Assembly: GCA_019090845.1 (NCBI GenBank)
Contig: JAHRVD010000194.1
Coordinates: 1 to 8,734, forward strand
From: Marinosulfonomonas sp.
GTDB taxonomy: Bacteria; Pseudomonadota; Alphaproteobacteria; Rhodobacterales; Rhodobacteraceae
Reading direction: 5' to 3'
Length of the DNA stretch: 8,734 nt
Positions 5,535 through 5,921 of the stretch are shown piece by piece. Numbering within the stretch: position 1 is the first letter of the stretch; each line of letters starts with the position of its first letter. The notes beneath the pieces are model-generated. The model saw nothing but the letters and a program-made list of their open reading frames with translations, was not told the DNA's origin and ran no database searches. Position numbers and translations under genes: made by a program.

Positions 5535-5921
5535 ATGAATCTATCCCCGCCACATCCCGAAGACTGGATTCGTCCGCCCGCCGCCCTGCCCCATTGTCGG
5601 CTGGACGAGCCGCCCAATGGCGCACGGGTGGTTGTTGCCGGGCTGGTGCTGGTGCGCCAGCGGCCGGGAACTGCCAAGGGGGTGATCTTTATTACGCTTG
5701 AGGATGAAACCGGGGTTGCCAATGTCATTGTCTGGCGGGCGATGTATGAAAAGTTTCGCCGCGCAGTGATTTCCGGGCGGCTGTTGCGGGTCAGCGGCAA
5801 GTTGCAGCGCGAAAACGGGGTGGCGCATGTGATTGCCGACAGAATTGAGGATATGTCTTATCTGCTGGATGAACTGCTGAAGCCAGCACAACAGGGCACA
5901 TCCGAACTGCAAAATACGTGA
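5535..5921 (+). CDS. Stand-alone OB-fold protein resembling the C-terminus of error-prone polymerase DnaE2
   Basis: A 128-residue protein. Residues 32-67 ([20 protein letters not shown], then [16 protein letters not shown]) and 82-111 ([27 protein letters not shown]) look like the C-terminal OB-fold (tRNA_anti-codon family) that ends DnaE2/ImuC polymerases. PHP, palm, fingers and helix-hairpin-helix domains, totalling over 900 residues in DnaE2, are absent. Residues 1-25 (including [15 protein letters not shown]) do not resemble DnaE2, and the usual basic DnaE2 tail is replaced by [13 protein letters not shown]. An in-frame TGA at 5490 and the lack of any earlier start fix ATG 5535. A perfect LexA box lies just upstream, suggesting DNA-damage induction. 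It may bind single-stranded DNA or compete in the ImuA-ImuB-DnaE2 mutasome, or be a decayed remnant of that cassette. The frame is intact, which argues for a working gene. Confidence 0.8.

Follow-up and report, generated by a model that had tools for sequence, protein, structure and literature searches.

DnaE2 is encoded as two separate genes in many Rhodobacteraceae, one for the polymerase core and one for a free C-terminal OB domain

The polymerase DnaE2 is known outside Rhodobacteraceae for the error-prone copying of damaged DNA. In a contig of Marinosulfonomonas sp. (JAHRVD010000194.1; all 8,734 bp were analysed and are hereafter called the window), a small gene at 5535..5921 on the plus strand encodes 128 residues that match only the C-terminal end of this enzyme. 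Is such a gene the debris of a lost polymerase, a small protein put to another use, or one half of a polymerase whose other half is encoded elsewhere in the genome?

The free OB gene and its conserved locus

The 128-residue protein matches the OB-fold family PF01336 (Pfam, E 4.5e-13) and, among the NCBIfam models, the error-prone polymerase DnaE2 (NF004225, E 8.7e-33), confined to model positions 946-1041 of 1047. The DnaE1 models trail on the same protein (E 7e-8 and 4.7e-6). As the original prediction held, the product is a stand-alone C-terminal OB domain of DnaE2, and the DnaE2 model outranks other OB families. It contains the OB only: the PHP-Pol3-HhH core with the catalytic aspartates, which a whole DnaE2/ImuC carries in one chain, is absent, and the core with both Asp motifs is encoded by a separate gene. 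In the AlphaFold2 model, residues 31-106 form the OB barrel with moderate confidence (pLDDT 78); a model of full-length DnaE2 is also moderate (pLDDT 69). The folds nearest to the barrel in a structure search are SSB, PriB, RPA and Stn1/Ten1, and a PDB sequence search gave marginal matches only. Membership in the SSB family was dropped, as no SSB family model of Pfam or NCBIfam matched at E<=1e-3 and the likeness is one of fold only.

Both flanks of the barrel differ from those of a complete DnaE2. The N-terminal 25 residues had been taken as new; residues ~12-27 align with the linker that joins core and OB in full-length DnaE2, so this segment is not wholly new. At the other end, the usual DnaE2 tail is absent, as had been stated: the C-terminal motif SRDFH, a feature derived from the present comparison and not from the literature, occurs in 30 of 33 full-length DnaE2s and in none of 81 free OBs or 23 OB-less DnaE2s.

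A protein search within length limits of ~70-224 aa returned 7136 relatives, the best 120 of which were listed, and a genome scan confirmed 545 loci, the best 80 of which were used for all locus statistics. The intact frame noted in the window recurs throughout these 80 loci, each with one open frame spanning the whole match. The dN/dS ratio is 0.156 between the window and its relative L005, 0.03-0.28 in 38 of the 40 closest pairs (0.52 and 0.79 in the other two), and has a median of 0.28 over 1076 pairs with dS of 0.05-1.2. The orthologue comparison called for by the original prediction thus gave constrained rather than neutral values, which indicates that the family is under purifying selection; neither the broken frame nor the neutral substitution of a pseudogene is seen. 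An alignment of 81 free OBs has 54 columns of at least 95% identity, and for 30 of these the same residue is found in at least 90% of 20 DnaE2 tails. The blocks RQRPGTA-G (41-49) and YE..RRAV (71-78) are largely invariant. They line up with the elements by which the OB of E. coli Pol III alpha touches the beta clamp, namely loop 1003-1013 and helix 1035-1043 (PMC4703070), in an alignment that is weak taken alone (E 0.099).

The motif GTTCTATATTTGTTC (5518..5532, plus strand) ends 2 bases before the ATG and has the form GTTC-N7-GTTC, which we take to be the alphaproteobacterial LexA box. A single exact box is unremarkable in an 8.7-kb window (0.26 expected; at least one in 44 of 200 shuffles), and conservation was therefore used as the test. 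The exact box precedes the free OB in 79 of the 80 relatives, as expected for the SOS-type operator originally proposed; in the sole exception (L081), the match begins 8 bases from the contig end. Only 12 other such boxes occur on both strands of the 915 kb that the 80 loci comprise. In the window and 79 loci taken together, the first in-frame ATG lies 1-2 bases past the box in 70 of 80 cases and at most 5 bases past it in 77, and the upstream consensus reads cTtGc ... aaAT GTTCTATnTTTGTTC t.atg. A predicted -35 element (TTGCGC, 5500..5505, plus strand) falls on the cTtGc of this consensus, and a predicted -10 element (TATATT, 5522..5527, plus strand), 7 bases before the ATG, lies inside the operator; TTG and TATnTT are spaced by 16-18 bases in 71 of the 80 sequences. 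The operator therefore overlaps the predicted -10 element and, with the ATG so near to the latter, a leaderless transcript is predicted. The free OB gene is thus likely to be under LexA control and induced by DNA damage.

The surroundings are conserved as well. A divergent 2Fe-2S ferredoxin gene (5100..5423, minus strand; Pfam) serves as marker of the locus, and a DegP/HtrA protease gene (5978..7444, minus strand; NCBIfam) converges on the OB gene. Among the best 80 of the 545 loci, the ferredoxin gene is found divergently within 1.5 kb upstream in 78, an FG-GAP gene is a neighbour in 48, and DegP lies within 1.5 kb downstream in 40. The recurrence of these neighbours indicates that the free OB loci derive from one ancestral locus; horizontal spread of the gene among these 80 was dropped, given that 78 have the ferredoxin gene next to the OB gene. 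A GC-rich inverted repeat (5933-5958) that lies between the OB gene and the convergent DegP gene resembles by eye a shared terminator. At the other end of the window (1-1014), a histidine-rich membrane protein that has no NCBIfam match resembles by eye an alkane hydroxylase or desaturase.

The missing half of DnaE2 and the other mutasome genes

A genome search for the rest of dnaE2, as the original prediction suggested, located an OB-less DnaE2 on another contig of the window's own genome (G000:C353), with its N-terminus cut by the contig end; imuB was not found in this 73.7% complete assembly. We extended the search, using the OB, the DnaE2 model and ImuB, to 150 Rhodobacteraceae genomes, that is, 149 at least 90% complete and the window's own. 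DnaE2 was scored only above the model cut-off and termed short when its match ended at model position 978 or earlier (mostly 937-940) with the OB segment absent. An OB was termed free in a frame under 420 aa, and most free OBs in the genome table were called by frame length. The table omits one weak OB match (G002:C14, E 1.2e-4, 45 residues), whose genome has two full DnaE2s.

The first table held 65 genomes with full DnaE2, 61 with short DnaE2 plus free OB, two with both forms, 12 with neither, three with short DnaE2 but no OB, six with free OB but no DnaE2, and one (G078) with a short DnaE2 bearing the tail. The last proved to be a single 1129-aa frame with a broken model match and was recounted as full. 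G008 was dropped from the genomes with both forms, which fell from two to one, as it has one full gene running across the record start, and G084, G088 and G139 were dropped as cases of free OB without DnaE2, as they hold contig pieces of a full-type DnaE2 (core, OB and SRDFH end). On recount, short DnaE2 is paired with a free OB in 61 genomes, DnaE2 carries an OB of its own and a free copy is lacking in 70, 12 have neither form, one (Dinoroseobacter shibae) has both, and six are misfit or fragmentary; a free OB is present in 65 of the 150. D. shibae was recognised as the genome with both modules because the locus L104 matches its 126-kb plasmid at 100%: the split form lies on the chromosome (L133) and a full imuB-dnaE2 on the plasmid (NC_009957.1), for which PMC9426580 describes an imuA-imuB-dnaE2 cassette.

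The six misfits comprise the three genomes with short DnaE2 but no OB and three with a free OB but no DnaE2 over the cut-off (G046, G056 and G140). In G039 and G143, both with short DnaE2 and no OB, only a distant ferredoxin is seen (45% and 36% identity), and so the assembly probably does not include the free-OB locus. In G059, also with short DnaE2, the ferredoxin gene and 222 bases beyond it are present, with no OB or box at that place. G140 has a short-type DnaE2 fragment that ends at model position 941 and scores below the cut-off, and G046, in 7 contigs, has a free OB with box and ImuB, with DnaE2 not found.

All 23 short DnaE2s examined retain both catalytic motifs, and no OB match was found at any of their 23 loci (467-1836 bases downstream in the 20 measured). 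In the 20 chains read, 13-62 residues separate the start of the motif ...HPxxLLRxxLTP... from the end of the protein. OB and core genes share a contig in eight genomes, where they lie 0.32-2.9 Mb apart by coordinate. Starting from free-OB loci, 20 genomes were examined, including Phaeobacter sp. J2-8, Mameliella alba, Shimia gijangensis and Roseovarius confluentis, and all 20 show the same arrangement: DnaE2 ends at model position 938-972 and a separate OB matches between 941 and 1042. As these genomes were chosen for having the OB, this result is a test of the core alone; at least one of them (L084) is also in the 150-genome set, as G052. Altogether, DnaE2 is encoded as two separate genes in many Rhodobacteraceae. 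As a side observation, the short chains of L128 and L131 have the C-termini THPRNVRFFS and GHPRNMRHFA. These may be what is left of an HPR...SRDFH tail, in which case the OB would have been excised from inside DnaE2.

The short dnaE2 genes have operators of their own. A LexA-type box (GAAC-N7-GAAY or GTTC-N7-GTTC) is present in 19 of the 19 loci with the start in view, exact in 8 and with one mismatch in 11; among 100-base windows drawn at random from these loci, 0.2% contain an exact box and 4.8% one within a single mismatch. All split genomes but the window's own incomplete one have ImuB (60 of 61), and in the 12 genomes without DnaE2 and OB the ImuB match is absent or weak (E 6e-8 or worse). 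At all 12 imuB loci opened, an exact LexA-type box is followed after 1-26 bases by an in-frame start. The genes imuB and short dnaE2 lie ~0.5-5 kb apart in at least six genomes (G027, G038, G052, G071, G089 and G130) and far apart or on different contigs in others. A canonical ImuA query gave a weak match in 10 of 11 split-type genomes (E 6e-4 to 2e-10), with none in G130; the match in G030 belongs to the plasmid module. Eight of these very diverged genes were fetched (L242-L249; E 2e-4 to 2e-10 against a canonical relative) and seven could be located. In each of the seven, an exact box lies 41-184 bases ahead of the match; the matches being weak, we call the genes ImuA-like. These associations plausibly tie the free OB to the mutasome, as had been suggested. 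That imu genes can be scattered and LexA-controlled has been described in general (PMC3901139); by comparison, the split polymerase is the new part.

Origin of the split and comparison with known systems

In a tree of DnaE2 cores cut before the OB, the 20 short DnaE2s sampled all fall on one side of one branch, and in a larger, quick tree 23 of 23 do so (SH-aLRT 99). The free OBs likewise form one clade (100/99; 24 of the 81 used, G076 not among them). One clade for each half points to a single gene fission. If the core tree is rooted on other families, the full-length sequence nearest to the short clade is that of G004, whose dnaE2 carries the box GAACATAATGCGAAC adjoining its ATG and whose imuB lies on another contig. 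Next comes G076, which branches basally in the short clade; its free OB (L271, G076:C42) keeps a piece of the DnaE2 tail, HPRDQSKLLF, and a long low-complexity N-terminal part, has no exact LexA box, and is possibly a transitional form. The arrangements in these two genomes would fit an order in which the operon dispersed first, the OB was split off second and the operator was gained later. The original prediction had the gene arise by an internal deletion in an imuA-imuB-dnaE2 operon that kept the promoter and the 3' end. It did not arise by such a deletion: an OB-less dnaE2 survives elsewhere with its catalytic motifs and its own operator, imuB is present in 60 of 61 split genomes, and most of those searched for ImuA have an ImuA-like gene.

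The species background was taken from an rpoB tree. It was built from 60 genomes, out of 139 that have rpoB, picked to cover all states and including 9 of the 12 with neither form. Split and full states are intermixed on this tree with about 20 changes, which prevents gain and loss from being polarised on it. In 13 independent pairs that differ in short DnaE2, the free OB differs the same way in 12.0 on average and the opposite way in none (p about 0.0005); the average was 12.1 before G008 was recoded. With full genomes excluded, 6 pairs remain, 4.7 of them the same way and none opposite (p 0.06), a co-variation that is suggestive only. At the ancestral locus, all 20 inspected genomes with full DnaE2 or neither form (14 full, 6 neither) retain the ferredoxin gene and lack the OB, and 19 of them retain the FG-GAP or DegP neighbour too.

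The present system has in common with the unsplit DnaE2/ImuC system a homologous OB (NF004225 946-1041), boxes of LexA type, ImuB and, in most cases, an ImuA-like gene. It differs in that separate genes encode the polymerase core and the OB, neither half keeps the SRDFH tail, and imuB, short dnaE2, OB and the ImuA-like gene each have their own box. Several DnaE2s without OB are recorded by Timinskas et al. (PMC3919608) and perhaps correspond to the short half described here; however, the part of that paper available mentions no separate OB gene beside them, and a text search of it for Rhodobacter or Roseobacter found nothing. The DnaE2X systems, as far as the available text of PMC12926913 goes, also have a mutasome component in two proteins, but there it is ImuB that is split (iPolY and ImuB-C) and here the polymerase; a split DnaE2 is not described in that text. 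The main text of the paper on D. shibae LexA sites (PMC6473078) does not mention imuA, dnaE2 or an OB-fold, and in the literature searched no description of a split DnaE2 with a free OB gene was found.

In cyanobacteria, too, the alpha subunit of a C-family polymerase comes from two genes, in that case an intein-split DnaE (PMC3919608). By contrast, the free OB, the half that was scanned, matches no intein family in Pfam, and only 13-62 residues lie between the HP motif and the end of the core in the 20 chains read. Split inteins are usually larger than this. With no intein match in the OB half and little room at the core end, reassembly of OB and core, if any, would probably be non-covalent.

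Function of the free OB domain

We propose, with a probability of roughly 0.75, that the gene at 5535..5921 encodes the detached C-terminal OB of a split DnaE2 whose core is encoded elsewhere in the genome, and that this OB acts in trans as a subunit of the mutasome under predicted LexA control. RecA-triggered cleavage of LexA would derepress imuA, imuB, the dnaE2 core and the OB together. The OB could then dock non-covalently on the core, whose retained C-terminal HPxxLLR helix ends beside the former start of the OB, and might dock on the clamp as well. As it is made separately, its dose would set the moment at which the error-prone polymerase gains clamp competence. From sequence we infer both SOS induction and reassembly. 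A farther-reaching version, to us an even bet, holds that one dnaE2 fission produced a diffusible OB that reassembles non-covalently, that four separate LexA-controlled genes gate mutagenesis, and that the OB forms a dose-dependent clamp/ssDNA switch across dozens of Rhodobacteraceae genera.

It is unlikely, though conceivable, that the OB was freed and re-used as a small SOS-induced ssDNA-binding protein that guards gaps or aids RecA and is no subunit of DnaE2. Its nearest folds, SSB, PriB, RPA and Stn1/Ten1, would suit such a role, and G046 keeps a free OB with DnaE2 not found. A general SSB-like helper would, however, be expected to be independent of the form of DnaE2, whereas the free OB follows short DnaE2 in 12 of the 13 independent pairs on average and is absent from the 20 full or neither loci inspected; moreover, 12 of the 15 genomes without a full-score DnaE2 also lack the OB, the other three being G046, G140 and G056.

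DnaE2 may merely have lost its OB, and the free OB might bind ImuB or the clamp and regulate the mutasome without restoring the OB function of the polymerase. We consider this rather improbable. The near-constant presence of ImuB in split genomes is in its favour, as is the clamp motif being carried by ImuB and not ImuC (PMC3901139); the 30 of 54 near-invariant columns in common with DnaE2 tails favour the ancestral role of the OB over a regulatory role only. It is nevertheless hard to separate from the split-polymerase reading.

The remnant allowed for in the original prediction, a decaying dnaE2 3' end retained by chance, is very improbable given a frame open in 80 of 80 loci, a box in 79 of them, dN/dS of 0.156 and 54 near-invariant columns, and the gene is split instead. 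Real operon decay looks different. In 289 genomes of the class, most matches listed outside Rhodobacteraceae lie in frames of ~1000 aa or more and at least ten in shorter ones; the two of these opened, G422 and G417, are decaying operons. G422 (L228) has a fragmented imuA-imuB-dnaE2 operon in place, and G417 (L229) has a lone OB end with a DnaE2-type tail, with no core in its 12-kb stretch and no box.

The role of the OB in C-family polymerases is disputed between ssDNA sensing and clamp contact (PMC4703070). The split-polymerase reading bears on this question: here, the OB is naturally parted from the polymerase with both kept, and it could be deleted, dosed or added back without touching the polymerase. 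Moreover, small Rhodobacteraceae proteins annotated as "OB-fold" or "single-strand DNA-binding" may belong to the SOS mutagenesis machinery, and the truncated-looking DnaE2 proteins of this family may not be broken.
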